The position numbers and the translations under genes were made by a program. Below the pieces are notes generated by a model. It was not told the origin of the DNA. It made no database searches and saw only the letters and a program-made list of their open reading frames with translations. Shown piece after piece: positions 44,570 through 64,000 of a DNA stretch of 64,000 bases. This DNA is from Variovorax sp. PBL-E5 (GTDB lineage: Bacteria > Pseudomonadota > Gammaproteobacteria > Burkholderiales > Burkholderiaceae_C): contig NZ_LR594671.1 in the NCBI RefSeq assembly GCF_901827185.1, forward strand, positions 744,001 to 808,000, given 5' to 3'. The number at the start of each line of letters is the position of its first letter. Position 1 is the first letter of the stretch.

Positions 44570-44582
44570 ATCGGATTGCGAC

Positions 44583-45689: not shown

Positions 45690-45728
45690 CGCAGCGCACG
45701 GCCGGCCGCGCGCTGGCTCTTCAGCCGC

Positions 45729-46297: not shown

Positions 46298-46366
46298 TGT
46301 GCCTAGTTACAGCACGCGTAACAAGATATTTCGTTACTTTCTTCTTACCTGCGTGAAAAAAGCCAT

Positions 46367-46861: not shown

Positions 46862-47026
46862 GGCGGGCGTCTCTGCGGTGGCGATTTCATGCCGGCGCGC
46901 GGGCCCGCCGATTGCGGCCCCGCGCGGCCTCGCAGTGCGAGGGGACGCGTGCCCGCATCGGTCGATGCCCGGCCCCATCAAAATGTCCTATTGACAGAAC
47001 AATGGAAGTGACCAACCATCGCGGCC
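46862..47026. promoter_or_regulatory. Promoter region of the HutC-type regulator operon
   Basis: Just before the regulator start is an AT-rich patch with TGTC (46984-46987) and TTGACA (46991-46996). ATTG and CAAT arms there enclose ACAGAA (46990-47003 region). This may combine a -35 box with an operator for the regulator itself. The rest is GC-rich without visible structure. Confidence 0.4.
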
Positions 47027-47818
47027 ATGTCGCAGATGCCGCTGCCCAAATACCACCAGATCTACCTGGTGCTGCGCGAGCAGCTGGAAGAGGGGCGCTT
47101 TGCCGACGGCCTGCCTGGCGAGCTGGCGCTGATGGCGCAGTTCGGCGTGGCACGGGTCACGGTCCGGCGCGCGCTCGAGCGCATGTCCGCCGAAGGGCTG
47201 ATCTCGCGCAACCCGGGCCGCCGCACGCGCCCCGTCGCCCCGCCGGCCGCTGCCGAAGGCCGCGCCGCCGACGGCAAGGGACGTGCGCATTTGCATGGGC
47301 TGCTCGAGAACCTGGTCACGATGGGGCTGCACACCTCGGTCAAGGTGATCGACGTGGCGACGATCCCGGCCTCGACGGCGGTGGCGCAGGCGCTGCAGCT
47401 GCAGCTCGGCGATCCGGTGCAGAAGGCGGTGCGCGTGCGCTCGATGCGCGCGGGCCCGCTGTCGCACATCACCACCTACGTGCCCGCGGAGATCGCGCAG
47501 CAGTTCGGCCGCCGCGAACTCGCAAGGAAGCCGATCCTGATGTTGCTGGAGGAGTCCGGCGTCAAGGTCGGGCGTGCCCACCAGACCATCTCCGCGCGGC
47601 TCGCCGACAACGTGCTGGCCGGGCATCTCGACGTCGCCGTCGGCTCGGCCCTGCTCGCCGTGCGGCGCCTGGTCTACGACGATGCCGACAAGCCGGTGCA
47701 GTGGCTGCATGGCTTCTATCGGCCCGACCGCTACACCTACGAGATGCAGCTCTCCCGCGTCGGCAGCATCGACGCCAAGGTCTGGATCAACCAGGATGTT
47801 CCCGCTCCATTCAACTGA
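47027..47818 (+). CDS. GntR-family (HutC/UTRA type) regulator
   Basis: This 263-residue regulator has a winged helix at about residues 8-70 (GELALMAQFGVARVTVRRAL, MSAEGLISRNPGRRTR) and a C-terminal UTRA sensor (about 95-245; LLENLVTMGLHTSVKV and RRLVYDDADKPVQW). UTRA domains bind small effectors, commonly the pathway substrate or an intermediate. As first gene of the long plus-strand cluster, 16 bases before the importer's binding protein, it probably regulates its own operon, including the LeuCD-like, PrpD-like and perhaps Hyu genes. Confidence 0.92.
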   Translation: MSQMPLPKYHQIYLVLREQLEEGRFADGLPGELALMAQFGVARVTVRRALERMSAEGLISRNPGRRTRPVAPPAAAEGRAADGKGRAHLHGLLENLVTMGLHTSVKVIDVATIPASTAVAQALQLQLGDPVQKAVRVRSMRAGPLSHITTYVPAEIAQQFGRRELARKPILMLLEESGVKVGRAHQTISARLADNVLAGHLDVAVGSALLAVRRLVYDDADKPVQWLHGFYRPDRYTYEMQLSRVGSIDAKVWINQDVPAPFN

Positions 47819-47834
47819 AGAAAAAGGAAAGCCC

Positions 47835-49037
47835 ATGTCCAATCGTCGCCGCTTCATGTCGCAATCCGCTGCCGTGGCTTCCGCCATCGCGTTCCCGCTG
47901 GTGGCCGGCGCGCAGCCGAAGACCGTCAAGGTCGGCGTGCTGCATCCGGTCACCGGCGCACTCGCCTACTCGGGCCAGCAGTGCCGGCTCGGTGCGCAGA
48001 TGGCGATCGAGGACATCAACAAGGCCGGCGGCATCCACTCGCTCGGCGGCGCGCAGATCGAGGCGCTGCTGGGCGACGCGCAGTCCACCCCGCAGGCCGG
48101 CACCGCCGAGGTCGAGAAGATGAACGAGGCCGGCGTCTCGGCGATCGTGGGCGCCTTCGCCTCGGCCATCTGTCTGGCCACCACGCAGGCGGCGGCCAAG
48201 TACAACCTGCCGCACGTGGTCGATGTCGGCGTGGCCGACCAGATCGTCGAGCGCGGACTGAAGAACACCTTCCGCTTCGGCCCCGGCTACAACAAGTCGA
48301 CCGAAGTGGCGATGGCCAACCTGCTGGTGCTCAACAAGGCCGCGGGCAATCCCGCCAAAACGGTGATGATCATCCACGAGGACTCGTTGTTCGGCACCGG
48401 CACGGCGCAGCTGCTGTCGCGCGAGCTGCCGGGCTACGGCTTCGAGGTCAAGGAGGTGGTGAAGCACGCCAACCCGACGCGCGACTTCAACAACATCGTG
48501 CTGCGCATGAAGTCGATCAACCCCGACATCGTGATCCCGGCCAACTACTACAACGAATACGCGCTGCTGGTGCGCACGATGCAGCAGCAGAAGGTGTCGC
48601 CCAAGGCGATCTTCTCGGTGCTGGGCGGCGCGGCGTCGAGCTACAAGTTCGTGAAGGAATACCCCGAAGCCGCCAACGGCATCATCGATTGCAACCACTG
48701 GTTCAACCCGAAGGACAAGCGCTCGGCCGAACTGCGCAAGCGGGTCGAGGCCAAGGGCCTGTTCTTCAGCTACGAGGTCTTCATGACCTACACCGCGATG
48801 GGCCTTCTGGCCGATGCGATCGAGCGCGCGAAGTCGACCGACCGCGCCGCGATCATCGATGCGCTGGAGAAGAGCAGCTTCTCGAACCACATCATGCCGT
48901 ACGGCCCGACGAAGTTCGTCAACGGCCAGAACCAGGGCGCGCAGCCGCTGATGACGCAGGTGTTCAAGAACGACATCAAGGTGATCATTCCGCGCGACTA
49001 TCGCGAGGTGGAGCCGGTGTTTCCGCTGAAGGCGTGA
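47835..49037 (+). CDS. Branched-chain-type ABC importer, periplasmic binding protein
   Basis: This 400-residue type I binding protein has a Tat-like signal (NRRRFMSQSAAVASA...VAGAQP, cleavage near 26-28). The mature domain begins VKVGVLHPVTGALAYSGQQ. A full set of permeases and ATPases follows. Compared with the binding proteins at 16.8 and 24.8 kb the sequence is clearly distinct, so the three importers should have different ligands. GGAAAG lies upstream of the ATG at 47835. Confidence 0.92.
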   Translation: MSNRRRFMSQSAAVASAIAFPLVAGAQPKTVKVGVLHPVTGALAYSGQQCRLGAQMAIEDINKAGGIHSLGGAQIEALLGDAQSTPQAGTAEVEKMNEAGVSAIVGAFASAICLATTQAAAKYNLPHVVDVGVADQIVERGLKNTFRFGPGYNKSTEVAMANLLVLNKAAGNPAKTVMIIHEDSLFGTGTAQLLSRELPGYGFEVKEVVKHANPTRDFNNIVLRMKSINPDIVIPANYYNEYALLVRTMQQQKVSPKAIFSVLGGAASSYKFVKEYPEAANGIIDCNHWFNPKDKRSAELRKRVEAKGLFFSYEVFMTYTAMGLLADAIERAKSTDRAAIIDALEKSSFSNHIMPYGPTKFVNGQNQGAQPLMTQVFKNDIKVIIPRDYREVEPVFPLKA

Positions 49038-49074
49038 GGATGAGCGTGGGCCTGGGACGGGCGGGAACCTGACC

Positions 49075-49947
49075 GTGTTCGACTTCAATATCCTCTTCCC
49101 GTCGGTCCTCAACGGCCTGACCACCGGCGCGGTCTATGCGCTGATCGCGCTCGGCCTCACGCTGATCTACGGCGTGCTGCACATCATCAACTTCGCGCAC
49201 GGCGCCTGCCTGATGCTGGCGCTGTATGCGGTGTACTTCCTCAAGGAGCGCTGGGGCATCGACCCCTACCTCGCGCTGCCGATCGTGATCCCCGGCATGT
49301 TCGCGCTCGGCTACGGGCTGCAGCGCATCGTCATCAACCGCGCCGGCCACGGCAAGGACGAGAACATCCTGCTGGCCACGCTCGGCATCGCGATCGTGAT
49401 GGAGAACCTGGCGCTGATCTTCTTCAAGTCCGACACGCGCAGCATCGACACCGCCTACGCGCTCAGCACCGTCGCCATCGGCCCGGCGATGATCGCGGTG
49501 CCCAAGCTGGTCGCCTTCGCGGGCGCGCTGGTGGTGTCGGCGCTGCTGTTCTGGATCATGGGCGCGACCGACCTCGGCCGTGCCATCCGTGCCGTCGCCA
49601 AGGAGCGCGAAGGCGCCAAGCTGATGGGCATCGACGTCGAGCACGTCTATGCAATGAGCTTCGGCATCGGCCTGGCCTGCCTCGGCGCCGCCGCCTGCTT
49701 CCTGCTGCCGGCCTACTACGTCAATCCGCAGGTCGGCAGCGGCTTCGTGCTGGTCGCCTTCACCATCGTCGTGCTCGGCGGCATGGGCAGCTTCGTCGGC
49801 GCGCTCGTCGGCGGCTTCCTGGTCGGCGTGGTGGAATCGCTCGGCGGCCTCTACCTCGGCGAATCGCTGGGGCAGATCGGCATCTTCGCGATCTTCATCG
49901 GCGTCGTGCTGTTCCGGCCCGAAGGGCTGTTCGGAGCCAAGGCATGA
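49075..49947 (+). CDS. Branched-chain-type ABC importer, permease (LivH family)
   Basis: This 290-residue permease has about eight membrane helices: GLTTGAVYALIALGLTLIYG, HIINFAHGACLML and the C-terminal AFTIVVLGGMGSFVGALVGG. The GTG start at 49075 gives the expected N-terminus (FDFNILFPSVLNGLTTGAV). Its stop overlaps the next ATG. Confidence 0.92.
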   Translation: MFDFNILFPSVLNGLTTGAVYALIALGLTLIYGVLHIINFAHGACLMLALYAVYFLKERWGIDPYLALPIVIPGMFALGYGLQRIVINRAGHGKDENILLATLGIAIVMENLALIFFKSDTRSIDTAYALSTVAIGPAMIAVPKLVAFAGALVVSALLFWIMGATDLGRAIRAVAKEREGAKLMGIDVEHVYAMSFGIGLACLGAAACFLLPAYYVNPQVGSGFVLVAFTIVVLGGMGSFVGALVGGFLVGVVESLGGLYLGESLGQIGIFAIFIGVVLFRPEGLFGAKA

Positions 49948-50936
49948 GCGCCGTCACGCAACGTGGCCGCGACCTTGCCGGCATCGCCCTGTTCGCGGTG
50001 CTGGTGGCCTGCGTGCCGCTCGCGACCTCGTCGGGTGTCGCGCTCAACTTCGTCACGATGGCGCTCTATGCGGCGCTGATCGCGCAGGCCTGGAACATCC
50101 TCGGCGGCTTCGGCGGGCAGTTCTCGTTCGGCCATGCGCTGTTCTTCGGCACCGGCGCCTACATCCAGGCCATCGCGCAACTGCAGGGCGGCCTCAATGC
50201 GTGGGTCGCGCTGGCGCTGGCGGTGATCGGCGCCGCGGTCGTGGGCCTCGTGATCGGCGCGCTGACCTTCCGCTACGGCCTCAAGGGCTCCTACTTCGCG
50301 CTGGTCACGCTGGCCTTTGCCGAGGTGTTCCGCATCGTCGCGACCTCGGTGCCCTTCACCGGCGGCGGCGTCGGCCTGATGGTGCCGCTGCGCGAGTCGG
50401 CGGCCAACCTGCAGTTCGCCTCGCGCGCCGGCTACCTGTGGCTGGTGCTGGGCTTCGTCGTCGCCGCATTGCTCGTGTCCTGGTGGCTGCGCAACGGCCG
50501 CTTCGGCGCCTACCTGCAGGCGGTACGCGACAACGAGGACGCGGCGCGCGCCGTGGGCGTGAACCCGTTTCGCATCAAGCTCGGCGCGATCGGCATCTCC
50601 GGCGCCTTCATGGGCGCGGCGGGTGCCTTCTACGTGCAGATGTTCCAGTACATCGACGCCGGCATCGCCTACGGCGCGACGATCTCGATCGAGGCACTGG
50701 TGGCCGCCATCGTCGGCGGCATGGGCACGCTGTGGGGGCCGGTGCTGGGCGCCGTGGTGCTGCATGCGCTGGCGGACTTCACGCGCAACCTGTTCGGCGA
50801 ACTGCCCGGCATCAACATGGTGGTCTACGGCACGGTGCTGGTGCTGATCGTGATCTTCCTGCCGCGCGGCATCGCGGGCATGGGTCTGTCGGCGCGGCAG
50901 CTGTGGGTTTCGGCGAAGGGAGGCCGACGTGGCTGA
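49944..50936 (+). CDS. Branched-chain-type ABC importer, permease (LivM family)
   Basis: This 330-residue permease has FGGQFSFGHALFFGTGAYIQ, KGSYFALVTLAFAEVFRIV and the ATPase-docking loop YLQAVRDNEDAARAVGV. It overlaps its neighbours by four bases upstream and eight downstream. It is not fused to an ATPase, unlike the 26.8-kb system. Confidence 0.93.
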   Translation: MSAVTQRGRDLAGIALFAVLVACVPLATSSGVALNFVTMALYAALIAQAWNILGGFGGQFSFGHALFFGTGAYIQAIAQLQGGLNAWVALALAVIGAAVVGLVIGALTFRYGLKGSYFALVTLAFAEVFRIVATSVPFTGGGVGLMVPLRESAANLQFASRAGYLWLVLGFVVAALLVSWWLRNGRFGAYLQAVRDNEDAARAVGVNPFRIKLGAIGISGAFMGAAGAFYVQMFQYIDAGIAYGATISIEALVAAIVGGMGTLWGPVLGAVVLHALADFTRNLFGELPGINMVVYGTVLVLIVIFLPRGIAGMGLSARQLWVSAKGGRRG

Positions 50937-51690
50937 ATCGCTCTTGGTGCTCGACGGCATCTCGCGCGCCTTCGGCGGCCTGAAGGCGGTGCAGAACGTG
51001 AGCCTCGCGGTGGCCGGAGGCAGCCTGTCGGCGCTGATCGGCCCCAACGGCGCGGGCAAGACCACGCTGTTCGCGCTGATGTCCGGCTTCCTCAAACCCG
51101 ACAGCGGCAGCGTGCGCTTCGCGGGCCGCGACATCACCGGCCATGAGCCGCACCGCAACGCGATGCTCGGCATGACGCGCACCTTCCAGATCGTCAGGCC
51201 CTTCGCGGCCCAGACCGTGCGCGAGAACATCGCGGTCGGCGCGCACCTGCGCGTGCGCAGCCGCGGCGCGGCGCTGTCGCGTGCGGAGGCGGTGGCCGAG
51301 CGCGTGGGCCTCGCGCCGCAGCTCGACAAGGCGGCCTCGGACCTCACCGTGGCCGGCCGCAAGCGCCTCGAACTCGCGCGCGCGCTCGCGGCCGAGCCGC
51401 GCCTGCTCTTGCTCGACGAGGTGCTCGCCGGCCTCAATCCGCAGGAGATCGCCGAGATGATGCCGGTGGTGCGCGGCATCGCCGACAGCGGCATCACGGT
51501 GCTGATGATCGAGCACGTGATGCAGGCCGTGATGCATCTCGCAGAGCACGTCTGGGTGCTGGCGCAGGGCCAGCTGATCGCCGAGGGCAATCCGGCCCAG
51601 GTCACCTCCGACGACAAGGTGGTCGAGGCCTACCTGGGCCACGGCACCGCGGCGCGGCTGCGCAAGGCGGCCGCGGGAGCCGGCGCATGA
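50929..51690 (+). CDS. Branched-chain-type ABC importer, ATPase (LivG family)
   Basis: This 253-residue ATPase has Walker A GPNGAGKTT, TRTFQIVRPFAAQTVRENI, VAGRKRLELARAL in place of the LSGG signature as in other LivG proteins, and Walker B LLLLDEVLAGLNP. The GTG at 50929 has AAGGGAGG upstream. Its stop overlaps the LivF gene as ATGA. Confidence 0.93.
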   Translation: MAESLLVLDGISRAFGGLKAVQNVSLAVAGGSLSALIGPNGAGKTTLFALMSGFLKPDSGSVRFAGRDITGHEPHRNAMLGMTRTFQIVRPFAAQTVRENIAVGAHLRVRSRGAALSRAEAVAERVGLAPQLDKAASDLTVAGRKRLELARALAAEPRLLLLDEVLAGLNPQEIAEMMPVVRGIADSGITVLMIEHVMQAVMHLAEHVWVLAQGQLIAEGNPAQVTSDDKVVEAYLGHGTAARLRKAAAGAGA

Positions 51691-52397
51691 CGGTGCTGCT
51701 CGACATCCGCGACCTGCGCGGCGGCTACGGCCGCGTCGAGGTGCTGCGCGGCGTCGACCTGCAGGTCCGCGCCGGCGAGATGGTCGCGCTGCTGGGCAGC
51801 AACGGCGCCGGCAAGTCGACGCTCAACAAGATGGTCTGCGGCCTCTGCCCCGCATGGAGCGGCACGGTCGGCTTCGACGGCCGCGACCTGAGCGGCGCGC
51901 ACTACCGCGAGGTGGTGAAGGCCGGCCTGATCCAGGTGCCCGAAGGCCGCAAGGTGTTCCCCAACCTGAGCGTGCGCGAGAACCTCGAGCTCGGCTCTTT
52001 CACGCGCGCCCGCGAGCGCCGCGCCGCCAACCTCGAGAAGGTGTTCGGCATCTTCCCGCGCCTGCGCGAGCGCATGCGCCAGAACGCCGGCACGCTCAGC
52101 GGCGGCGAGCAGCAGATGCTCGCCATCGGCCGCGGCCTGATGGCCGAGCCGGTGCTGCTGATCCTCGACGAACCCTCGCTGGGCCTGTCGCCGCTGCTGG
52201 TGGAAGAGATGTTCGCGCTGATCCGCGAACTGCGCGACGGTGGGCTCGCGGTGCTGCTGGTCGAGCAGAACGTCGGCCAGTCGCTCGAGATCGCCGACCG
52301 CGCCTATGTGCTGGAGAACGGCAGCGTGCGCTTCTCGGGCCTGCCGCAGGACCTGCTGGGCAGCGACGAACTGCGCCGCGCCTACCTCGGTCTTTGA
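51687..52397 (+). CDS. Branched-chain-type ABC importer, ATPase (LivF family)
   Basis: This 236-residue ATPase has Walker A GSNGAGKST, IQVPEGRKVFPNLSVRENL, signature LSGGEQQM and Walker B LLILDEPSLGLSPL. It is the last component of the importer; the Bug-type binding protein gene follows 20 bases later, so the operon continues into the catabolic genes. Confidence 0.94.
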   Translation: MTVLLDIRDLRGGYGRVEVLRGVDLQVRAGEMVALLGSNGAGKSTLNKMVCGLCPAWSGTVGFDGRDLSGAHYREVVKAGLIQVPEGRKVFPNLSVRENLELGSFTRARERRAANLEKVFGIFPRLRERMRQNAGTLSGGEQQMLAIGRGLMAEPVLLILDEPSLGLSPLLVEEMFALIRELRDGGLAVLLVEQNVGQSLEIADRAYVLENGSVRFSGLPQDLLGSDELRRAYLGL

Positions 52398-52417
52398 ATC
52401 CATGAAGGAGATATTTC

Positions 52418-53371
52418 GTGAAACGCCGTGACATCCTGATCTCGTCCGTGGCCGCCGCGCTCGCCACCGGCGCCCGCGCGCAGAACAACGCGCCCGTGCG
52501 CATCCTGGTCGGCGCGACGGCCGGCGGCTCCACCGACACCATCGCCCGCACGCTGGCCGCCAGCATGGGACCGCTGCTCGGCCGCACGGTGATCGTCGAG
52601 AACCGCCCCGGCGCCGGCGGCAACATCGCCGCCGATGCGGTGGCCAAGGCCGCGCCCGATGGCAACACGCTGCTGATGAGCTACACCAGCCATGCGATCA
52701 ACGCCACGCTCTACCCGACGCTGCCTTTCGATCCGGTGAAGGACTTCACCGCGCTCACCTGCGTCGCGACCTCGCCTTCGATCCTGGTCGCCAACCCCTC
52801 GGTGCCGGCCAACGACGTGCGCGAGCTGATCGCACTGGTCAAGAGCCGGCCGGGCCAGTACAACTTCGCCATCGGCGGCATCGGCTCCTCGCTGCACATG
52901 GCCGGCGAGGCCTTCAAGATGCAGTCGGGCACCTACATCGTGAACATTCCCTACCGCGGCACTTCGCCCGCGGTGCAGGACGTGCTCGCGGGCCAGGTGC
53001 AGCTGATGTTCGCCGCGGTCGGCAACGTGCAGGCCCACATCAAGGCCGGCAAGTTGAAGGCGCTCGGCGTCACTTCGGCCAAGCGGTTGCCCGAGTTCCC
53101 GAACGTCCCGACCATCGCCGAGGTCCTGCCCGGCTACGAGTCGAGCGCGTGGTTCGGTTTGTTCGGGCCGGCGCACATGAGTGCGGACCTGACACGCCGC
53201 ATCGCCGACGCCGCACGCCGGGCCATCGCCCAGCCCGAGATGCGCAAGCGCCTCGACAATGAAGGCGCGATCCCGGTCGGCAACACGCCCGAACAGTTCT
53301 CCGCCTTCGTGCAGAGCGAGATCACGCGCTGGGGCAAGGTGGTGAAGTATTCCGGAGCCAAACCCGAATGA
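52418..53371 (+). CDS. Bug-family (TctC-type) solute-binding protein 1
   Basis: This 317-residue periplasmic protein of the Bordetella-uptake-gene/TctC family has a signal with KRRDILISSVAAAL...ARAQ. The mature region shows VRILVGATAGGSTDTIAR, VIVENRPGAGGNIAAD and a closing GKVVKYSGAK. Such proteins usually bind carboxylates such as citrate, aspartate or dicarboxylates and work with TctAB permeases. No TctA or TctB gene is in the window, so this may be an orphan sensor-type binder or use permeases encoded elsewhere. GAAGGAG supports the GTG at 52418. Its stop overlaps the LeuC-like ATG. Confidence 0.92.
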   Translation: MKRRDILISSVAAALATGARAQNNAPVRILVGATAGGSTDTIARTLAASMGPLLGRTVIVENRPGAGGNIAADAVAKAAPDGNTLLMSYTSHAINATLYPTLPFDPVKDFTALTCVATSPSILVANPSVPANDVRELIALVKSRPGQYNFAIGGIGSSLHMAGEAFKMQSGTYIVNIPYRGTSPAVQDVLAGQVQLMFAAVGNVQAHIKAGKLKALGVTSAKRLPEFPNVPTIAEVLPGYESSAWFGLFGPAHMSADLTRRIADAARRAIAQPEMRKRLDNEGAIPVGNTPEQFSAFVQSEITRWGKVVKYSGAKPE

Positions 53372-54654
53372 ACGCACGCACTGCCTCCGCGCACGCGCCG
53401 CCGCAGACGCTGGCGCAGAAGCTCATCGCCCGCGCCTGCGGCCGCGACGGCGTCGCGGTGGGCGAGATCGTGACCTGTGCGGTCGACCTCGCGATGTTCC
53501 ACGACTCCTCCGGCCCGCGCCGCCTGCAGCCGATGCTCGAGGAACTCGGCGCGCAGATCTGGGACCGCTCGCGCATCGTGCTGGTGATGGACCACTACGT
53601 GCCCGAGCGCGACGACGATTCGCGCCGCATCGTGCGCATCGCGCGCGACTGGGCGCGCGACCAGCAGCTGCCGCACGTCTACGACAGCCAGGGCATCTGC
53701 CACGTGGTGGTGCCGCAGCACGGCCACATCCGGCCCGGCATGCTGTGCGTGGGCGGCGATTCGCATTCGCCCACCGGCGGTGCCTTCGGCGCCTACATGT
53801 TCGGCATCGGCAGCACCGAGATGCTGGGCGTGGTCGTCACCGGCAGCATCTGGCTGCGCGTGCCTGAAACCATCCGCATGTGGTGGGACGGCGCGCTGCC
53901 TGCCGGCGTCACCGCCAAGGACATGATGCTGCACATGATCGGCCGCTTCGGCATGAACGGCGGCCGCTACCAGGCGGTCGAGTTCTGCGGCCCGGCCGTC
54001 GCGGCGCTGTCGATGCAGGAGCGCATGACGCTGTCCAACATGAGCGCCGAGCTCGGCGCGCAGGCCGGGCTGATCGCGCCCGATGCGACCACCGCGGCCT
54101 ACCTCGCCACGGCCGGCGCGCCGCCGGTCGACATGGCGCCGTGGTTCACCGACGACGGGGCCGCGTTCACGCAGCATCGCTTCGACGCATCGGCGCTGGA
54201 ACCGTATGTCGCCGCGCCGCACAGCCCGGCCAATGCGCACGGCGTGAGCCGGCATGCCGGCACGCGCATCGATGTCGCCTACATCGGCGCCTGCACCGGC
54301 GCCAAGCTCGACGACCTGCGCGCCGCGGCCGAGGTGCTGCGCGGCCACAAGGTCGCGGCCGGCGTGCGGCTGATCGTCGCGCCGGCCAGCCTGCGCGACC
54401 AGGACCAGGCGCGCGAGGAGGGCGTGCTGCAGGCGCTGCTCGACGCCGGCGCCGAGCTCTATCCGACTGCGTGCGGCGCCTGCTCGGGCTATGGCGATCC
54501 GCTGGACGACGTGACCGTGATCTCCACCACCGCGCGCAACTTCAAGGGCCGCATGGGCTCGCCGAGCGCGCTGGTGTATCTCGGCTCGCCGTACACGGTG
54601 GCGGCGTCCGCGCTGCGCGGCTGTGTGACCGATCCGCGCGAGGTGCTCGCATGA
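53368..54654 (+). CDS. Aconitase-superfamily hydratase, large subunit (LeuC/DmdA-like)
   Basis: This 428-residue protein matches the large subunit of two-subunit hydro-lyases such as isopropylmalate isomerase and 2,3-dimethylmalate dehydratase. The [4Fe-4S] ligands are visible: Cys309 (GACTGAKLDD) and Cys369 and Cys372 (ACGACSGYGD). The substrate loops DHYVPE and VGGDSHSPTGGAFGAYM are also present. It would add or remove water from a substituted malate/maleate-type acid. A leucine role is unlikely because no other leu genes are nearby and catabolic genes surround it. The small subunit follows with an ATGA overlap. Confidence 0.9.
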   Translation: MNARTASAHAPPQTLAQKLIARACGRDGVAVGEIVTCAVDLAMFHDSSGPRRLQPMLEELGAQIWDRSRIVLVMDHYVPERDDDSRRIVRIARDWARDQQLPHVYDSQGICHVVVPQHGHIRPGMLCVGGDSHSPTGGAFGAYMFGIGSTEMLGVVVTGSIWLRVPETIRMWWDGALPAGVTAKDMMLHMIGRFGMNGGRYQAVEFCGPAVAALSMQERMTLSNMSAELGAQAGLIAPDATTAAYLATAGAPPVDMAPWFTDDGAAFTQHRFDASALEPYVAAPHSPANAHGVSRHAGTRIDVAYIGACTGAKLDDLRAAAEVLRGHKVAAGVRLIVAPASLRDQDQAREEGVLQALLDAGAELYPTACGACSGYGDPLDDVTVISTTARNFKGRMGSPSALVYLGSPYTVAASALRGCVTDPREVLA

Positions 54655-56544: not shown

Positions 56545-57509
56545 AACTCCTGCGCCATCTCGCGACCGCCTTTCTGGCGGCGCTGCCGCTGTTCGCTCTT
56601 GCCCAGGCGGCCGACTTTCCGAGCAAGCCGATCCGCATCGTGGTGCCGTTCCCGCCGGGCGGTGCCACCGACGAGGCGGCGCGCCTGATCGCCACCCAGA
56701 TGGGCGCGCACTGGGGCCAGCCGGTGGTGGTCGACAACCGCCCGGGCGCGGGCGGCAACGTCGGCTCCGACATCGTCGCCAAGTCGGCGCCCGACGGCTA
56801 CACGCTGGTGATGGGCGTGACCGGCTCGCATGCCATCAACATCTCGCTCTACAGCAAGATGCCCTACGACCCGGTGAAGGATTTCGTTGCCATCAGCCAG
56901 GTGGCGGTGGTGCCCAACGTGCTGGTGGTGCATCCCTCGGTGCCGGCGAAGAACCTGGCCGAACTGGTGGCGCTGGCCAAGACCGAGCCCGGCAAGCTCA
57001 ACTACGCCTCGCTCGGCAACGGCACGGCCGCGCACCTCGGCATGGAGATGCTCAAGACCGCGGCCGGCATCGACGTGACGCACGTGCCCTACAAGGGCAG
57101 CGCGCCCGCGGTGTCCGACCTGATCGCCGGCCAGGTGCAGATGATGGTCGACGGCCTGCCCTCGTCGCTGCCGCACGTGAAGGCCGGCCAGCTGCGCGCG
57201 ATCGCGCTCACCAGCCTGCACCGTTCGCCCTCGCTGCCCGATCTGCCGACCATCGCGGAAACGTACCCGGGCTTCTATGCCGATGCCTGGTCGGGCCTGT
57301 TCGCGCCCAAGGGCACGCCCAAGCCGATCATCGACAAGCTCTCGACCGAGGTGCAGCGCATCCTGCGTCTGCCCGACGTGCGCCAGAAGCTCGCCGCGCT
57401 CGGTGCCGAGCCCGTAGGTTCAACGCCTGCGGAGTTCGAGGCACACGTGAATCGCGAGATCGCGAAATGGGCCAAGGTCGTCAAGAGCAGTGGAGCGAAG
57501 GTGGACTGA
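56541..57509 (+). CDS. Bug-family (TctC-type) solute-binding protein 2
   Basis: This 322-residue protein has a Sec signal (LATAFLAALPLFALAQAADF), the mature start PIRIVVPFPPGGATDEAAR, then VVVDNRPGAGGNVGSD and a closing WAKVVKSSGAK. It is clearly related to, but distinct from, the Bug protein at 52.4 kb; two such binders flank the hydratase and PrpD genes. Like the first it has no TctAB partner here. It overlaps the PrpD-like gene as ATGA and ends the first part of the cluster. Confidence 0.93.
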   Translation: MKLLRHLATAFLAALPLFALAQAADFPSKPIRIVVPFPPGGATDEAARLIATQMGAHWGQPVVVDNRPGAGGNVGSDIVAKSAPDGYTLVMGVTGSHAINISLYSKMPYDPVKDFVAISQVAVVPNVLVVHPSVPAKNLAELVALAKTEPGKLNYASLGNGTAAHLGMEMLKTAAGIDVTHVPYKGSAPAVSDLIAGQVQMMVDGLPSSLPHVKAGQLRAIALTSLHRSPSLPDLPTIAETYPGFYADAWSGLFAPKGTPKPIIDKLSTEVQRILRLPDVRQKLAALGAEPVGSTPAEFEAHVNREIAKWAKVVKSSGAKVD

Positions 57510-57979: not shown

Positions 57980-59668
57980 ATGAATGACACCATCATCGAT
58001 CCCGTCACGCTGGCCGTCCTGCGCGGCCGCCTCGAGCAGGTGGCCGACGAGATGGACGCCACGCTCTACCGCAGCGCCTTCAATCCGATCATCGCCGAGG
58101 CGCACGATGCGTGCCACGGACTCTACGATGCCGACACCGGCGACACGCTGGTGCAGGGCAAGTCGGGCCTGCCGGTGTTCGTCGGCGCGATGGCCTTCGC
58201 GGTGCGCGCCACCGCGGCAGTGGCCGAGTCGCGCTGGGGCATGATCGACGGCGACATCTGGATCAGCAACGATCCCTACGACGGCGGCACGCACGCCAAC
58301 GACTTCAAGCTGGTGCGGCCCTTCTTCCGCAATGGCAAGCTCTACTGCTACATGGCCTCGGCCGCGCACTGGCACGACGTCGGCGGCGCGGTGCCCGGCA
58401 ACTACAACCCCTCGGCCACCGAATGCTGGCAGGAGGCGGTGCAGATCCCGCCGGTGCGCATCGTGCGCGAAGGCGAGCTCGACCAGGACGTGCTCGCGAT
58501 ACTGCGCGCCAACACGCGCCTGCCCGAAAGCCTGTGGGGCGATCTCAACGGCCAGCTGGCCGCGCTCGAGCTCGGCGCCAGGCGGCTGCACGGCCTGCTC
58601 GACGAATACGGCGACGCGCTGGTGCTGCAGGCGCTGGGCGAACTGCGCAGCCGCGCGCTCAGGCTGATGCGCTCGCACATCGCCTCGCTGCCCGACGGCC
58701 GCTACAGCTTCGACGACGTGCTCGACAACGACGGCATCACCGACCAGCCGCTGGCCATCGCGCTCGACATGACGGTGGCCGGCGACCGGCTCACGCTCGA
58801 TTTCTCGCGCAGCTCGCCGCAGTGCGCGGGGCCGGTCAACATCTCGCGCGCGACCTCGATCGCGGCCTGCTACGTCGCGCTCAAGCACCTGTTCCCCGAC
58901 GTGCCGGCCAATGCCGGCGTGCTCGATGCGGTGGACTTCGTGATCCCCGACAAGCTGGTGATCAGCTGCGAGCGCCCGCGCCCGGTCGGCGGCTACACCG
59001 AGACCATCCTGCGCATGATCGACGTGATCTTCAGCGCCACCGCCAAGGCCGATCCGACGCGCGCGGTGGCGCAGGCCTACGGCACCATCAATGCGCTGTC
59101 GATCGCCGGCCATCGCAGCGATGCCGCCCGCGAGGGCCAGCGCTGGGTGATGTTCAGCTTCTTCGGCGGCGGCCATGGCGGGCATTCGGGCGGCGATGGG
59201 CTCTCGCACGGCAATGCGCCGATCTCGACGGCGACCATTCCGCCGCTCGAGATCCTCGAAGCCGCGTACCCGGTGCGCTTCACCGAATGGTCGCTGCGTG
59301 CCGACTCGGGCGGCGACGGCCGGCATCGCGGTGGCCTCGGCGCGGTCTACGAGATCGAGCTGCTCGAACAGAACGCCGAGGTCTTCCTGTTCGGCGAGCG
59401 CGGCAGCTCGCCGCCCAAGGGCATCGCGGGCGGCGGGCCGGGCGCGGTCAATGTCTTTCGCTACGAGAACGATGGCCAATGGCACACGCCGCCGATGCTG
59501 TCCAAGATCCATGGCGTCAAGCTCGCGCGCGGCGAGCGCGTGCGGCTCGAAACGCCGGGCGGCGGCGGCTGGGGCGCGGCGGCCGAACGGCCCGCAGCGC
59601 AGCGCGAACAGGACCGCGCGATGGGTTACGTGGGCACGGCCTCGGCGCAGAAGAAAGCATCCGAATGA
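57980..59668 (+). CDS. hyuB: Hydantoinase B / oxoprolinase-type subunit (HyuB)
   Basis: This 562-residue beta subunit belongs to the ATP-dependent hydantoinase/oxoprolinase/acetone-carboxylase family. Family blocks are ISNDPYDGGTHANDF, the metal-region HWHDVGGAVPGNY, GGYTETILRMIDV and the C-terminal RADSGGDGRHRGGLG, and the length is normal. With HyuA it would use ATP to open a cyclic amide (hydantoin, 5-oxoproline or an analogue) or carboxylate a ketone. No gamma subunit of acetone carboxylase is present, which favours ring hydrolysis. It overlaps hyuA as ATGA. Confidence 0.92.
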   Translation: MNDTIIDPVTLAVLRGRLEQVADEMDATLYRSAFNPIIAEAHDACHGLYDADTGDTLVQGKSGLPVFVGAMAFAVRATAAVAESRWGMIDGDIWISNDPYDGGTHANDFKLVRPFFRNGKLYCYMASAAHWHDVGGAVPGNYNPSATECWQEAVQIPPVRIVREGELDQDVLAILRANTRLPESLWGDLNGQLAALELGARRLHGLLDEYGDALVLQALGELRSRALRLMRSHIASLPDGRYSFDDVLDNDGITDQPLAIALDMTVAGDRLTLDFSRSSPQCAGPVNISRATSIAACYVALKHLFPDVPANAGVLDAVDFVIPDKLVISCERPRPVGGYTETILRMIDVIFSATAKADPTRAVAQAYGTINALSIAGHRSDAAREGQRWVMFSFFGGGHGGHSGGDGLSHGNAPISTATIPPLEILEAAYPVRFTEWSLRADSGGDGRHRGGLGAVYEIELLEQNAEVFLFGERGSSPPKGIAGGGPGAVNVFRYENDGQWHTPPMLSKIHGVKLARGERVRLETPGGGGWGAAAERPAAQREQDRAMGYVGTASAQKKASE

Positions 59669-61734
59669 CAGCAGCAGAATCTTCCGCTAAACCCGCACGG
59701 CTGGTCGTCGGCGTCGACGTCGGCGGCACCTTCACCGACCTCTTCGTGCTCGACGAGGCCAAGGGTACCGCACGCATCGTCAAGGTGCCGTCCACGCGCG
59801 GCGAAGAGGCGCGTGGCTTCATGAACGGCGTCGCGCGCGTGGCCGATTCGGCCGCGGCCATCGCCACCATCGTGCACGGCACCACCGTCGGCACCAACGC
59901 GCTGCTCGAACGCAAGGTCGCGCGCACCGGCATCATCACCACGCGCGGCTTTCGCGACGTGCTGGAGATGCGCCGCCGCGACCGGCCCGTGACCTGGGGC
60001 CTGCGCGGCAGCTTCGTGCCGGTGGTGCCGCGCGACCTGCGGCGCGAGGTCGACGAGCGCGTGCTGGCCGACGGCACGCTGCACACGCCGGTCGATCTCG
60101 ACCAGGTGCGCGCCGAGGCGCGCGCGCTGCTGGCCGCGGGCTGCGAGGCGGTGTGCGTGTTCTTCATCAACACCTATGCCAATCCCGCGAACGAGCGGCT
60201 GGCCGTCGCCGCGGTGCGCGCGCTCTGGCCCAACGCGCACGTGACTTCGGCCTGCGAGGTGCTGCCCGAGATCCGCGAGTTCGAGCGCTGCTCCACCGCC
60301 ACGCTCAATGCCGCGCTGCAGCCGGTGGTCGGCAGCTACCTCGCGCGGCTGGAGTCCGACCTGCGCGCGCACGGCTTCGACGGCGAACTGCTGGTGGTGC
60401 AGAGCAACGGCGGCGTGATGTCGCGCCAGACCGCGAGCGAACTGCCGGTGCGCACCGCGCTCTCGGGGCCGGCGGCCGGCGTGATCGCCTGCGCCGCGAT
60501 CGCGCGCGCGGCCGGCTTTCCGAATGCGATCACCGGCGACATGGGCGGCACTTCTTTCGATGTCTCGCTGGTCGCCAACGGCGAAGCCGCGCTGGCCGCG
60601 CAGACCGCGATCGAGTTCGGCATGGTGATCCGCTCGCCGATGATCCAGATCGAGACCATCGGCGCCGGCGGCGGCTCGATCGCTTCGGTCGATGCGAGCG
60701 GCATGCTGCAGGTCGGCCCCGAGTCGGCCGGCAGCGTGCCCGGGCCGGCCTGCTACGGCCGCGGCAACATGCGGCCGACGGTGACGGATGCCAACGTGCT
60801 GCTCGGCCGCATCGCCGCCGACCGGCCGCTGGGCGGCGGCCTGCTGGCCGCGCTCGACATCGACAAGGCGCACCAGGCCATCGACGAACACGTGGCCAAG
60901 CCGCTCGGGCTCGACGTGCACACCGCCGCCGAGGCGATCCTCACGGTGGCCAATGCGCGCATGGCCGGCGCGATCCGTCTCGTGTCGATCGAGCGCGGCC
61001 ACGATCCGCGCCGCTTCGCCTACATGCCCTTCGGCGGTGGCGGCGCGCTGCACGTGTGCGCGATGATGCGCGAGGTCGGCGTCGCCACCGGCATCGTGCC
61101 GCGCTACCCGGGCGTGACCTCGGCGCTCGGCTGCGTGATCGCCGACATGCGGCACGACGCGGTGCAGACGCTCAACCGGCCGCTCGACGAACTCGACGTC
61201 GCGGACCTGCGCGCGCGCATCGCGGCGCTCGCGGCGGCCTGCCAGGAGCGGCTCGATACCTCGGGCGTGCGCTTCGAGGAGGTGCGCGAGATCGTCGCGC
61301 TCGACATGCTCTACGCGGGCCAGACGCACACGCTACCGGTGCTGCTGCCCGCGGGCAGCGGCAGCACGCTCACACGCGAATCGATCCGCCAGGCCTTCGA
61401 GGCCAGCTACGGCGCCGCCTTCGGCCGCGTGCTCGCCGGCATCGGCATCCGCGTGATGAATCTGCGCTATGCGCGCGTCGGCGTGCGGCCCAAGTTCGAC
61501 CTCGCGGTGCTGGCGCCGGAAGGCGAGGGCCGCACCGCGCCGCTCGGCATGCAGCGCGTGTTCCACGCCGGGCAATGGCGCGAGGCCACGCGCTATGCGC
61601 GGCTCGACCTGCCGGTCGGCGCGCGCGTCGACGGGCCCGCGATCCTGGAGCAGGCCGACACCACCGTGTGGCTCGAACCGGGCTTCCATGCCGAGGTCGA
61701 TGCGCACGGCAATCTTCTCGTGAGGTTGTCATGA
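59665..61734 (+). CDS. hyuA: Hydantoinase A / oxoprolinase-type subunit (HyuA)
   Basis: This 689-residue alpha subunit has an actin/hexokinase-like ATP-binding fold. Phosphate loop 1 is GVDVGGTFTD (about 16-25), with HGTTVGTNALLER, phosphate loop 2 GDMGGTSFDVS, and SIERGHDPRRF and FGGGGALHVC further on. These match N-methylhydantoinase and 5-oxoprolinase A subunits, which phosphorylate the amide carbonyl. It forms the enzyme with HyuB. The order B-A, with no HyuC carbamoylase, suggests that the opened product is processed by other enzymes, probably those encoded directly downstream. Confidence 0.93.
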   Translation: MTAAESSAKPARLVVGVDVGGTFTDLFVLDEAKGTARIVKVPSTRGEEARGFMNGVARVADSAAAIATIVHGTTVGTNALLERKVARTGIITTRGFRDVLEMRRRDRPVTWGLRGSFVPVVPRDLRREVDERVLADGTLHTPVDLDQVRAEARALLAAGCEAVCVFFINTYANPANERLAVAAVRALWPNAHVTSACEVLPEIREFERCSTATLNAALQPVVGSYLARLESDLRAHGFDGELLVVQSNGGVMSRQTASELPVRTALSGPAAGVIACAAIARAAGFPNAITGDMGGTSFDVSLVANGEAALAAQTAIEFGMVIRSPMIQIETIGAGGGSIASVDASGMLQVGPESAGSVPGPACYGRGNMRPTVTDANVLLGRIAADRPLGGGLLAALDIDKAHQAIDEHVAKPLGLDVHTAAEAILTVANARMAGAIRLVSIERGHDPRRFAYMPFGGGGALHVCAMMREVGVATGIVPRYPGVTSALGCVIADMRHDAVQTLNRPLDELDVADLRARIAALAAACQERLDTSGVRFEEVREIVALDMLYAGQTHTLPVLLPAGSGSTLTRESIRQAFEASYGAAFGRVLAGIGIRVMNLRYARVGVRPKFDLAVLAPEGEGRTAPLGMQRVFHAGQWREATRYARLDLPVGARVDGPAILEQADTTVWLEPGFHAEVDAHGNLLVRLS

Positions 61735-62345
61735 ACGAAGGCACACGCATCGACGGGCCGAAGACCGCGCTCGTGGTCATCGACCTGCAGAACGACTTCC
61801 TCGATCCGAAGGGCGCCTATGCGCGCGGCGGCGACACCAACCCGTCGGCACTGCGGCTGCCCGAACGCGTCGCCGGCGTGGCGCGCGCGCTCAAGGCCGC
61901 GGGCGGCATGGTGCTCGCGAGCCAGTTCACGCTGTGGCCCGATGCAGCGGGCGAGCCGATGGTGTCGCCGCACCTGCTGGCGCTGCGGCCCTATCTGAAG
62001 AAGGGCGACTTCGCGCCCGGCAGCTGGGGGCAGGCGAACGTCGATGCACTGGCCGGCCTGATCGACGCGACGGTCAGCAAGGTCGCCTACTCGGCCTTCT
62101 TCAACACCCAGCTCGATTGGGTGCTGCGCCGCGCCGGCATCGACACCGTCGCGGTGTGCGGCATCGTCACCAACGGCGGCGTCGCCAGCACGGTGCGCGA
62201 TGCGCACATGCGCGACTACCGCACGCTGGTGCTCGGCGACGGCTGCGCGGCCTTCGGCGAAGAGCGCCACCAGACCTCGCTGGCCGACATGCGCAATGTG
62301 GCCGAGGTGACGGACTGCGCGGCCTTCATCCGGTCGCTGGCATGA
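61731..62345 (+). CDS. Isochorismatase-fold hydrolase lacking the usual catalytic Cys
   Basis: This 204-residue protein has the isochorismatase-like fold, with Asp18 in VVIDLQNDF and Lys117 in SKVAYSAF. Cysteine hydrolases of the family (maleamate, biuret and ureidoacrylate amidases) have a nucleophilic Cys in T-N-x-C-V. Here the segment is T147-N-G-G150-V, so Gly replaces it, as in true isochorismatases; another Cys lies seven residues earlier (Cys143). It may hydrolyse the HyuAB product by another mechanism, or do something different. It overlaps hyuA and the flavoprotein gene as ATGA on both sides. Confidence 0.87.
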   Translation: MNEGTRIDGPKTALVVIDLQNDFLDPKGAYARGGDTNPSALRLPERVAGVARALKAAGGMVLASQFTLWPDAAGEPMVSPHLLALRPYLKKGDFAPGSWGQANVDALAGLIDATVSKVAYSAFFNTQLDWVLRRAGIDTVAVCGIVTNGGVASTVRDAHMRDYRTLVLGDGCAAFGEERHQTSLADMRNVAEVTDCAAFIRSLA

Positions 62346-63775
62346 CGATGGACCTGGTCGATGGGCTCGTGCGCCGCATCCGCCGCACGCCGCATCTCGA
62401 TGCCGAGGCCCGAACGCAGGTGGCGATCGTCGGCGCCGGCGCTTGCGGGCTCGTGGCCGCGCTGATGCTGCATGACGCGGGCATCGACTGCGTGCTGCTC
62501 GAACGCGATGCGGCGCCCAGCGGATCGACCGCGCTGTCCTCGGGCTTCGTGCCCGCGCCCGCGACGCGCGCGCAGCGCGCGCAAGGCATCCTCGACGACA
62601 GCCCGGCGCGCTTTGCCGCCGACATCCAGGCCAAGGCCCACGGCCGCGCGGCGCCGGCCCTGGTGCAGGCCTATGCGGAGGCGATCGGCCCGGCCATCGA
62701 TGCCTTGCAGGAACGCCATGGCCTTGACTGGATCGTGCTCGACAACTTTCTCTATCCGGGCCACAGCCGCCACCGCATGCACGCGCTGCCGCAGAAGACC
62801 GGCGCCGCGCTGATGGCGAGCCTGCAGGCCGCGGCGGAGGTGGCCGGCATTCCGGTGCTGACGCAGGCGCTGGTCGACACGCTGTGGCTCGACGATGCGG
62901 ACCGCGTCGTCGGCATCGGTTACCGGCGCCCGGACGGTCGCGAGGAACAGCTCGCCTGCGACGCGCTGCTGCTGGCCTGCAACGGCTTCGGCGGCAATGC
63001 GGCGATGGTGCGTACGCTCTTGCCCGAGATGGCCGAGGCCACCTTCGGCGGCCATGCCGGCAACGACGGCAGCGCGATCCTCTGGGGCGAAGCGCTCGGC
63101 GCGCGGCTGCGCGACCTCGGCGGCTACCAGGGCCATGGCTCGTGGATCACGCCGCAGGGCGCGCTGATGTCGTGGGCCGTGATGATGGAAGGCGGCATGC
63201 AGATCAACCGTGAAGGGCGGCGCTTCCACGACGAGACACAGGGCTATTCCGAAGCCGCCGTGCATGTGCTCGCGCAGCCGGGCGGCATCGCATGGAACGT
63301 GTTCGATGCACCGCTGCTCGCGCTGGCGCGGGGCTTTCCGGATTTCTGCGAGGCCGAGGCGGCGGGCGCGCTGCGCCGCTGCGATTCGGTCGCGCAGCTC
63401 GCGGCCTGCATCGGTTGCGACGCGGTCGCGCTGCAGGCCACGCTCGCTACGCTCCACAGCCGCTCGGCGCAACCCGACGGCCGCGTCTTCACGCGCGGAC
63501 TAGCAGCCCCTTACTTCGCGGTCAAGGTCACCGGCGCGCTGTTTCACACCCAGGGCGGGCTCGACATCGATGCCGACACGCGCGTGCTGCGGCAGGACGG
63601 CTCGCCACTGCCCAACCTGCTGGCCGCGGGCGGCGCGGCCGGTGGCGTGTCGGGCGATGCGGTCTGGGGCTATCTCTCGGGCAACGGCCTCCTGAGCGCG
63701 ATCGCCGGCGGCGCCATCGCGGCGCGCACCGCGGCCGCACGGATCCATGCCAACAAGGACTCCCATGACGAATGA
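62342..63775 (+). CDS. FAD-dependent fumarate-reductase/ketosteroid-dehydrogenase-like flavoprotein
   Basis: This 477-residue flavoprotein has the N-terminal dinucleotide fold VAIVGAGACGLVAALML with Glu ending the second strand (LLERD). Next comes SALSSGFVPA at the FAD pyrophosphate, then a capping domain. The C-terminal GLDIDADTRVL and AGGAAGGVSGDAVWGYLSG are typical of the FrdA/3-ketosteroid 1-dehydrogenase family. It has no signal peptide, haem domain or FMN-transfer motif. It probably adds or removes hydrogen across a C-C bond next to a carbonyl or carboxylate of the pathway intermediate. It overlaps the previous gene and, by 11 bases, the next. Confidence 0.87.
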   Translation: MTMDLVDGLVRRIRRTPHLDAEARTQVAIVGAGACGLVAALMLHDAGIDCVLLERDAAPSGSTALSSGFVPAPATRAQRAQGILDDSPARFAADIQAKAHGRAAPALVQAYAEAIGPAIDALQERHGLDWIVLDNFLYPGHSRHRMHALPQKTGAALMASLQAAAEVAGIPVLTQALVDTLWLDDADRVVGIGYRRPDGREEQLACDALLLACNGFGGNAAMVRTLLPEMAEATFGGHAGNDGSAILWGEALGARLRDLGGYQGHGSWITPQGALMSWAVMMEGGMQINREGRRFHDETQGYSEAAVHVLAQPGGIAWNVFDAPLLALARGFPDFCEAEAAGALRRCDSVAQLAACIGCDAVALQATLATLHSRSAQPDGRVFTRGLAAPYFAVKVTGALFHTQGGLDIDADTRVLRQDGSPLPNLLAAGGAAGGVSGDAVWGYLSGNGLLSAIAGGAIAARTAAARIHANKDSHDE

Positions 63776-64000
63776 ATCGAACACCACGCTCAAGGCCCGG
63801 CTGGCGCGTGCCGACATCGTGCTCGCGCCCGGCATCTACGACGCGCTGAGCGCGCTGATCGCCGAGCAGGCCGGCTTCGAGGCGCTGTACCTCTCGGGCG
63901 CCTCGATCGCGTACACGCGGCTCGGGCGCTCCGACGTCGGACTCACCACCTTCAGCGAAGTCGCCGACACGCTGGCGCGCATCACCGAGCGCGTCACCGT
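63765..64000 (+). CDS. PrpB-like isocitrate lyase/PEP mutase-family protein, N-terminal part
   Basis: The first 78 residues before the window edge begin MTNESNTTLKARLARADIVL. APGIYDALSALIAEQAGFEA follows, then YLSGASIAYTRLGRSDVG and TTFSEVADTLARI. This is the N-terminal half-barrel of the isocitrate lyase/phosphoenolpyruvate mutase superfamily (methylisocitrate lyase, 2,3-dimethylmalate lyase, oxaloacetate decarboxylase). With a LeuCD-like hydratase and a PrpD-like protein in the same cluster, C-C cleavage of a substituted malate is the natural guess. The active-site K-K-C-G motif lies beyond the window, so the subfamily cannot be checked. Confidence 0.85.
   Translation, partial: MTNESNTTLKARLARADIVLAPGIYDALSALIAEQAGFEALYLSGASIAYTRLGRSDVGLTTFSEVADTLARITERVT

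Follow-up and report, generated by a model that had tools for sequence, protein, structure and literature searches.

A conserved catabolic gene unit, probably for a five-membered cyclic imide, with exchangeable ring openers

Introduction

What does a bacterium take up and degrade with an ATP-dependent ring opener, a LeuCD-like hydratase and a PrpB-like carbon-carbon lyase that are encoded together with an importer of their own? The question is raised by a 64-kb stretch of DNA from Variovorax sp. PBL-E5, called the window in the following (G000:C1:744001-808000 of the 7.09-Mb genome; G, C and L numbers denote genomes, contigs and loci). According to open reading frames (ORFs), sequence reading and profile scans, 16 same-strand genes span 47027-64637 (+), the last 637 bases lying beyond the window. 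A first-pass annotation had read these genes as an undescribed route in which a cyclic imide or lactam is imported, opened, hydrated and split. This core idea stands, while two of its parts, a PrpD step in the core and an amidase function of the isochorismatase-fold protein, had to be corrected. We describe a conserved catabolic unit that probably serves a five-membered cyclic imide; the probability that it is a catabolic operon for such a compound, with alkyl-substituted maleimides and succinimides as the likeliest candidates, is estimated at about 0.55. As the annotation had supposed, no described pathway with this combination was found in the open literature, to which most subscription papers do not belong.

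Conservation of the Unit

Bare proximity was rejected as evidence, as the genome holds five HyuA and several aconitase-family matches, which makes one neighbourhood uninformative. Because a single neighbourhood says little, the argument rests on conservation. A LeuC scan of named genomes provided the best 80 of 559 relatives, and further matches came from 200 genomes of the family (23 with LeuC at E 1e-100) and 398 of the phylum (11 at E 1e-105), the own genome included. The regions around the matches were compared by translated search and gave 111 LeuC loci, 108 of them distinct; membership in the gene families was assigned by identity cut-offs of our choice. Three loci with a LeuC identical to that of another locus (L074, L094, L110) were removed from the distinct-locus counts and from the LeuC tree only, and are still contained in the synteny comparison, the opener scoring, the well-covered counts, the gap spacings and the aligned-row counts. 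One such pair is Variovorax sp. Root473 (L074) and G122 (L031), a genome of the same genus as the window's. For the alignments, internal stop signs were dropped from translated matches in one PrpB-like, two FrdA-like and four MmgE rows and in none of the other families. Several ORFs in L041 and L036 were dropped, since by-eye reading suggested wrong frames. Among the matches listed, the best LeuC relatives are 87-92% identical and belong mostly to named Variovorax records; with the LeuC shared by G122 and Root473, this puts the window's genome in Variovorax.

In the 108 distinct loci, LeuC is accompanied by LeuD (103), the regulator (95), the PrpB-like lyase (85) and the FrdA-like flavoprotein (77), contig ends being among the misses. 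The 49 distinct loci with HyuAB contain the flavoprotein and the lyase in 45 cases each and the isochorismatase-fold gene in 47, at least some of the misses again being contig ends. Hydratase and lyase, both named as such by the annotation, are the most constant enzymes of the loci. Rare co-occurrence in other genomes, which the annotation had set against its own proposal, was not what reverse searches returned. HyuA occurred in 5/200 family genomes and, at E 1e-230, in 4/300 genomes of the order, the own genome counted in both; it lies beside LeuC in all five of the former and beside LeuCD in all four of the latter.

L142 and L144, two loci from the same genus in a different class of the phylum, hold the regulator, the importer and all enzymes except MmgE at 39-70% identity. 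Their order is leuC leuD prpB hyuB hyuA isoch frdA, with prpB moved and without the Bug and MmgE genes. In another family of the order (L149) the set is present including MmgE and Bug2. Because the set recurs in another class and in another family, the comparison argues that the operon is a unit kept by selection, and the earlier claim of one functional unit with its own importer is borne out by the linkage conserved across loci. Clustering of the flanks returned mostly lineage-specific neighbours, the useful ones being the PuuE-like and Pigmentiphaga genes described below. A separate arrangement was observed at L150 (G747:C29:59500-79400), where LeuCD and HyuAB stand with, by reading, a NitT/TauT-type importer and an epimerase-like protein in place of the usual importer, flavoprotein and lyase.

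Ring Openers and Importer

The putative ATP-dependent ring opener consists of a HyuB-like subunit (57980..59668, +, 562 aa; PF02538, 556 bits) and a HyuA-like subunit (59665..61734, +, 689 aa; PF01968, PF05378, PF19278). The HyuA translation contains DVGGTFTD, DMGGT and GSVPGP, corresponding to the phosphate and adenosine motifs DxGGTxTD, DxGGT and GxxPGP, and by eye four metal ligands of HyuB, Asp-His-Asp-His, align with D41, H99, D102 and H124 of CapB (alignment with 6yra_B). These motifs and ligands are those of the ATP-dependent caprolactamase CapAB (PMC8453981). Residues of the HyuB pocket, compared by eye with CapB, gave no pointer. The caprolactamase equivalog is not reached, with 521 bits for CapA and 281 bits for CapB against a cut-off of 1000 each. 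The nearest HyuA with a solved structure is the N-methylhydantoinase 7hk5 (409 bits).

Related loci have, in place of HyuAB, cyclic amide hydrolases from two other, unrelated families. In 14 distinct loci a single amidohydrolase of ~498 aa follows leuD in place of HyuB, HyuA and the isochorismatase-fold gene. The flavoprotein gene frdA comes directly after it in 13 of the 14, L042 having neither frdA nor prpB. The best matches of this protein are the allantoinase AllB and hydantoinases (TIGR03178, 220 bits, below the cut-off of 358; allantoinases and a D-hydantoinase in the Protein Data Bank (PDB)). The pattern HxH...K...H...H...D, which we take to be that of the metal ligands in the dihydropyrimidinase/allantoinase-type family, is present in 15/15 aligned rows. 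In the reverse search the amidohydrolase was found in 8/200 family genomes, beside LeuC in all eight.

A further 11 distinct loci instead have a PuuE-like protein of ~298 aa, encoded divergently to the importer and accompanied by genes for an AtuA-like protein and a short-chain dehydrogenase. Of the named matches, PuuE allantoinase is the nearest. The gene of the PuuE-like protein lies at L128:845-1741 (-) and in the same place in L108, L109, L112, L114, L118-L120, L123, L126 and L129; its product reaches 68 bits with TIGR03212 (cut-off 425) and 53 bits with PuuE of the PDB. The loci adjoin the same LeuCD-flavoprotein core, with the lyase in 9/11. The PuuE family is related to cyclic imide hydrolases (PMC9304392). 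At the chosen cut-offs, no locus with two opener types was found (0/111).

A quick LeuC tree requires at least seven opener changes among 56 rows, a number obtained without a shuffle control; 35/84 inner branches are open, Variovorax was thinned to 8 of 30 rows, and short LeuC matches were excluded. The best-supported change places the amidohydrolase loci L032 and L085 within a set of 16 rows (support 96), the rest of which have HyuAB or are unscored (two cut loci). Ring opening by HyuAB, as predicted by the annotation, is supported by intact motifs and by its replacement in relatives by two unrelated cyclic amide hydrolase families.

The substrates of HyuAB enzymes include lactams, hydantoins and imide-like rings. 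Enzymes of the hydantoinase/allantoinase/imidase type and of the PuuE/imidase type act on CO-NH-CO rings (in part PMC9863593, PMC4437985, PMC9304392). The substrate type shared by the three opener families is the CO-NH-CO ring, from which we infer a cyclic imide. The imide is preferred over a ureide because the latter needs a carbamoylase, and none of known type was recognised among the operon genes. Of the two ring types proposed by the annotation, the lactam is the less likely one, as imides and ureides are the known substrates in two of the three interchangeable opener families.

The importer was examined in well-covered loci, defined as those reaching 5600 bases upstream and 3800 bases downstream of the LeuC start, a range that does not always reach a PuuE-like gene. 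Its binding protein, of the branched-chain-amino-acid type (47835..49037, +, 400 aa; PF13458, 176 bits), is present in all 69 such loci with an opener (66 distinct): 46/46 with HyuAB, 14/14 with the amidohydrolase and 9/9 with the PuuE-like protein, in the last group at 52-56% identity. Of the 19 well-covered loci in which no opener was scored, three have it, and a fourth has a fragment (L035, with only an end of the gene). As to these exceptions, hyuB of L080 and L099 lies at a contig end or close to one, and L130 is without the upstream stretch in which puuE lies in L128. The importer appears to track the ring opener more than the LeuC core. Since it goes with the opener, this points to uptake of the closed ring.

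Hydratase, Lyase and Further Enzymes

The LeuC-like large subunit of the predicted [4Fe-4S] hydratase (53368..54654, +, 428 aa; NF001614, 525 bits, cut-off 385; PF00330, 303 bits) keeps the cysteines C309, C369 and C372 in 100/100 aligned rows, and the LeuD/DmdB-like small subunit (54651..55151, +, 166 aa; TIGR02087, 156 bits, cut-off 109) its GSSRE motif in 97/98. The LeuD loop GHAMKHG is unlike both M. jannaschii loops and has its Lys in 96/98 rows; loops of this type have a role in substrate recognition (PMC7308503). This Lys was rejected as proof of a tricarboxylate (homoaconitase-like) substrate, the same residue being present in M. tuberculosis LeuD.

The PrpB-like lyase of the isocitrate lyase superfamily is the last gene of the operon (63747..64637, +, 296 aa; L009:1748-2638; alternative start ATG at 63765). 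The window ends at 64000, and the extension proposed by the annotation completed the gene. KRCGH, presumably the catalytic Cys motif of PrpB-type lyases, occurs in 82/82 aligned rows and is shared with the methylisocitrate lyases among the best PDB matches. With 285 bits the TIGR02317 equivalog of PrpB is not reached (cut-off 354); the cut-off is also missed, with 272 bits, by the PrpB-like gene that lies close to the best PrpD of the genome. Because a normal LeuC (784 bits) and that separate PrpB-like gene, close to a high-scoring PrpD-family match, exist elsewhere in the genome, the housekeeping copies are probably those and not the ones of the operon. A second, divergent cluster with LeuCD, a PrpB-like protein and a branched-chain-type ABC importer was seen at L169 (G000:C3:222000-241900), its LeuC, LeuD and lyase being 31-36% identical.

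The isochorismatase-fold protein (61731..62345, +, 204 aa; PF00857, 131 bits) conserves D18, K117, G149 and G150 in 51/51 aligned rows. It reads TNGGV at the site where RutB (8bkd) has TNVCV. Glycine in place of the catalytic cysteine is also seen in YecD and is, as we assume, the state of true isochorismatases. A maleamate amidase or carbamoylase of known type was rejected on the missing Cys nucleophile (TNxCV), and the ordinary amidase of the annotation falls with it. The gene was not found with the other openers (0/14 amidohydrolase and 0/11 PuuE loci). It does occur without HyuAB in five Pigmentiphaga-type loci (L084, L087, L088, L091, L103), which combine regulator, LeuCD, isochorismatase-fold gene and lyase near a maleate-isomerase/arylmalonate-decarboxylase-like gene (5/5), an FAD monooxygenase (4/5; L084, L088, L091, L103) and an aldehyde dehydrogenase (3/5; L084, L088, L091).

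In the FAD flavoprotein of the fumarate reductase/ketosteroid dehydrogenase kind (62342..63775, +, 477 aa; TIGR01813, 209 bits, below the cut-off of 285), H265 and H402 are kept and Y302 and Y444 replace two Arg of fumarate reductase in 75/75 aligned rows. We take these to be the catalytic and the second substrate-binding Arg of fumarate and urocanate reductase; with Tyr at both columns, either function was rejected. The protein presumably resembles ketosteroid dehydrogenases in this respect and may desaturate its substrate. TcuA was rejected as well, with 113 bits against a cut-off of 369 and the genome's own TcuA at L153 (772 bits). Elsewhere in the genome, a paralogue lies between two MmgE/PrpD matches (G000:C3:325603-329160, mid-L157), and three TcuA-like flavoprotein matches fall within 8 kb near an MmgE/PrpD match (G000:C3:168255-175930).

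The divergent MmgE/PrpD-family protein (55141..56544, +, 467 aa) matches its two Pfam domains weakly (PF03972, 77 bits; PF19305, 87 bits) and is present at at least 45% identity in 13/108 distinct loci. It was therefore rejected as the core step that the annotation had made of it and is regarded as accessory. Bug2 is found in the same 13 loci. In PuuE-type loci the surroundings of the importer include, on the other strand, a less closely related MmgE match of 28-33% identity.

Operon Layout

The genes named by the annotation are all present on the + strand in the order UTRA regulator, five-part importer, Bug1, LeuC-like, LeuD-like, MmgE/PrpD, Bug2, HyuB, HyuA, isochorismatase-fold protein, flavoprotein and PrpB-like lyase. 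Scans against family libraries covered ten of the 16; permeases, ATPases and Bug proteins were named by reading. The unit begins with the GntR/HutC-type (UTRA) regulator (47027..47818, +, 263 aa; PF00392, PF07702). The binding protein is followed by ABC permeases 1 (49075..49947, +, 290 aa) and 2 (49944..50936, +, 330 aa) and ABC ATPases 1 (50929..51690, +, 253 aa) and 2 (51687..52397, +, 236 aa), all four with conserved synteny. Of the Bug/TctC-type periplasmic binding proteins, the first (52418..53371, +, 317 aa) occurs in 56/108 distinct loci and the second (56541..57509, +, 322 aa) is accessory. The nearly continuous overlap of starts and stops described earlier holds for 11/15 junctions; the other four are gaps of 16, 37, 20 and 470 bases.

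The largest gap (57510-57979), between Bug2 and HyuB, is of repeat type, with 59 matches in the own genome, three of them inside the gap itself. In the 11 other measured loci in which Bug2 adjoins HyuB, the spacing is at most 120 bases (median 2), and a scan of 57400-58100 for terminator- and promoter-like matches was negative. We read the gap as a probable strain-specific insertion of repeat type and rejected it as an operon border. It has the appearance of a mosaic repeat, a part of ~40 bases (query 302-343) recurring at dozens of places in the genome.

Downstream of the lyase, reading alone gives a short ORF (~64691-65212) and then TetR-type and beta-oxidation genes, and everything after 64637 looks unrelated and part of another unit. 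Upstream, at 43751-45689, an amino-acid-type binding protein and an enolase-superfamily (mandelate racemase type) protein were read. No Rfam family scored above its gathering score in 45700-64000.

Proposed Pathway and Alternatives

In the route that we propose, each reaction, the imide substrate and the order of steps are inferred from the observed genes, motifs, linkage and opener exchange. The UTRA regulator would sense the compound or a product, and the five-part ABC importer (and the Bug proteins) would bring the imide into the cell, where HyuAB would open the ring with ATP to the half-amide. Three routes are conceivable for the release of ammonia: an amidase not linked to the operon, spontaneous hydrolysis if the half-amide is a dialkylmaleamate, or an atypical activity on the part of the isochorismatase-fold protein. 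The flavoprotein would add a double bond if the compound is saturated. The LeuCD-like enzyme would then hydrate the substituted maleate to a substituted malate, which the PrpB-like lyase would cleave, yielding a carboxylic acid and a 2-oxo acid that is probably pyruvate. Starting from a five-membered imide, one arrives directly at a maleate-type diacid for LeuCD and at a malate-type acid for the lyase.

Several observations weigh against this route. Among the operon genes, none was recognised as a half-amidase of a known type. A ureide ring (hydantoin-like) would fit the opener families equally, with only the missing carbamoylase speaking against it. Because the scores of amidohydrolase and PuuE-like protein fall far short of the curated cut-offs for named families, the two may have novel substrates. 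The route does not account for the need of HyuAB, but not of the other two openers, for a Cys-less isochorismatase-fold partner, and one of six orthologues of the latter in the 200 family genomes (G034, L171) lies away from any HyuAB. The loop Lys also aligns in M. tuberculosis LeuD, so the loop does not fix the substrate (isopropylmalate, homoaconitate or dimethylmaleate). The loci were mostly chosen by LeuC (except in the reverse searches), which biases the tallies. Neither an opener nor an isomerase-like gene was seen in 29/108 distinct loci, several of them cut by contig ends; 15 of these have the PrpB-like and eight the FrdA-like gene, so the LeuC core would also serve without ring opening. 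L150 has LeuCD-HyuAB with a different importer and without FrdA-like, PrpB-like and isochorismatase-fold genes within its 20 kb.

Among other explanations, a ureide ring (a relative of hydantoin, dihydropyrimidine or allantoin) could be converted by HyuAB or the hydantoinase to an N-carbamoyl acid, decarbamoylated and passed to LeuCD and the lyase, the isochorismatase-fold protein being the counterpart of N-carbamoylsarcosine amidohydrolase. HyuAB with an isochorismatase-fold amidohydrolase is the N-methylhydantoin route, the replacing openers score best against allantoinases, and 7hk5 is the closest solved HyuA. The missing nucleophile in all 51 rows argues against this, as does the absence of the gene beside the other openers, no other carbamoylase being seen in the operon. 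A C2/C3-substituted malate is also not simply derived from a ureide, and we consider this origin unlikely. The HyuAB-like block could also be a 5-oxoprolinase or lactamase of the ordinary kind, cotranscribed with a LeuCD-lyase pathway to which it is unrelated, given that both subunits are clear family members, that 470 bases precede HyuB and that LeuCD-lyase modules without a ring opener exist. The repeat-type character of these bases and the position of HyuA beside LeuC in all five family and all four order genomes with a match make this improbable, and the swap for two other cyclic-amide-hydrolase families would be an odd coincidence.

The Pigmentiphaga-type gene set recalls the NicC/NicF/NicE logic of aerobic nicotinate degradation. 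A pyridine- or pyrrole-type heterocycle might accordingly be degraded via a substituted maleamate, with the isochorismatase-fold protein as counterpart of NicF and the imide as one of several entries. In line with this, these loci pair core genes with the isomerase-like gene, the FAD monooxygenase and the aldehyde dehydrogenase, and L171 (G034:C8:611500-631400) groups regulator, an isochorismatase-fold orthologue (64%), monooxygenase, isomerase-like gene and another LeuCD (36%) within 10 kb. NicF-type amidases, however, need the Cys that is missing here, and none of the three additional genes occurs in the window's operon, so that we judge this alternative to be rather unlikely. Hardly probable at all is a role of HyuAB in ATP-dependent carboxylation, in the manner of acetone or acetophenone carboxylase. 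These enzymes belong to the same superfamily, and subunits of both are among the matches, but HyuA reaches 300 bits there compared to 521 for the lactamase/hydantoinase branch, and related loci carry hydrolases in the place of HyuAB.

For the cyclic imide that we favour, a speculative and rather unlikely source would be the oxidative breakdown of chlorophyll, heme and bilins, with methyl-substituted maleimides and succinimides, e.g. hematinic acid and its dihydro form, as substrates. Ring opening of hematinic acid, which is 3-(2-carboxyethyl)-4-methylmaleimide, yields a methyl-homoaconitate. After hydration of this product by the LeuCD-like enzyme, the methylisocitrate-lyase-like enzyme would release pyruvate and glutarate. 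Pyruvate would derive from the ring carbon bearing the methyl group. With ethyl-methylmaleimide, butyrate would be formed beside pyruvate, and the flavoprotein would act on the dihydro forms. Because dialkylmaleamates hydrolyse spontaneously, the missing amidase would be explained. Mono- and dipyrrolic chlorophyll products, hematinic acid being named, are reported from leaves, herbivore spit and feces (PMC7318184). If this source were the true one, the operon would provide a missing step in chlorophyll and heme turnover.

The occurrence of the route in several Burkholderiales families and in another class, with three unrelated openers at one step, argues strongly, by comparison, for one ring compound as the common substrate. 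It also offers an experimental handle, namely one compound that all three would act on. Work would thereby be assigned to a Cys-less isochorismatase-fold enzyme and to clades of HyuAB, LeuCD and the flavoprotein that the family libraries used name only generically.

Comparison with Known Systems

The 2-methylcitrate cycle (PrpB, PrpC, PrpD) shares the lyase superfamily and the MmgE/PrpD family with the operon. In contrast to that cycle, no citrate-synthase-like gene was recognised in the operon, and its MmgE/PrpD protein is weak and accessory. Tricarballylate use (TcuA dehydrogenase, then aconitase) is similar in that an FAD dehydrogenase feeds an aconitase-family hydratase, the flavoprotein here staying below the TcuA cut-off. 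CapAB and N-methylhydantoinase (6yra, 7hk5) agree with the operon in the nucleotide motifs of HyuA and in all four metal ligands of HyuB (PMC8453981); HyuAB of the operon scores far below the equivalog cut-offs, however, and the partner genes differ.

The imide route with HxnM and HxnN, part of nicotinate catabolism in Aspergillus nidulans, also opens an imide, by a relative of the P. putida cyclic imide hydrolase and of PuuE, and continues with amide hydrolysis that other amidases can perform as well (PMC9304392). In contrast to the operon, the product there is 2-hydroxyglutarate, and the excerpt mentions neither a LeuCD nor a lyase (PMC9304392).

Nicotinate fermentation in Eubacterium barkeri (enamidase, the dimethylmaleate hydratase DmdAB and dimethylmalate lyase) resembles the proposed pathway in the opening of a cyclic amide, the hydration of a substituted maleate by a LeuCD-like enzyme and splitting by a member of the PrpB superfamily. 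Neither a B12-dependent methyleneglutarate mutase nor a methylitaconate isomerase was recognised among the 16 genes by reading, ten of them also scanned against family libraries. Compared to Eubacterium barkeri, the operon combines other ring openers with its own ABC importer and a flavoprotein in an aerobic host.

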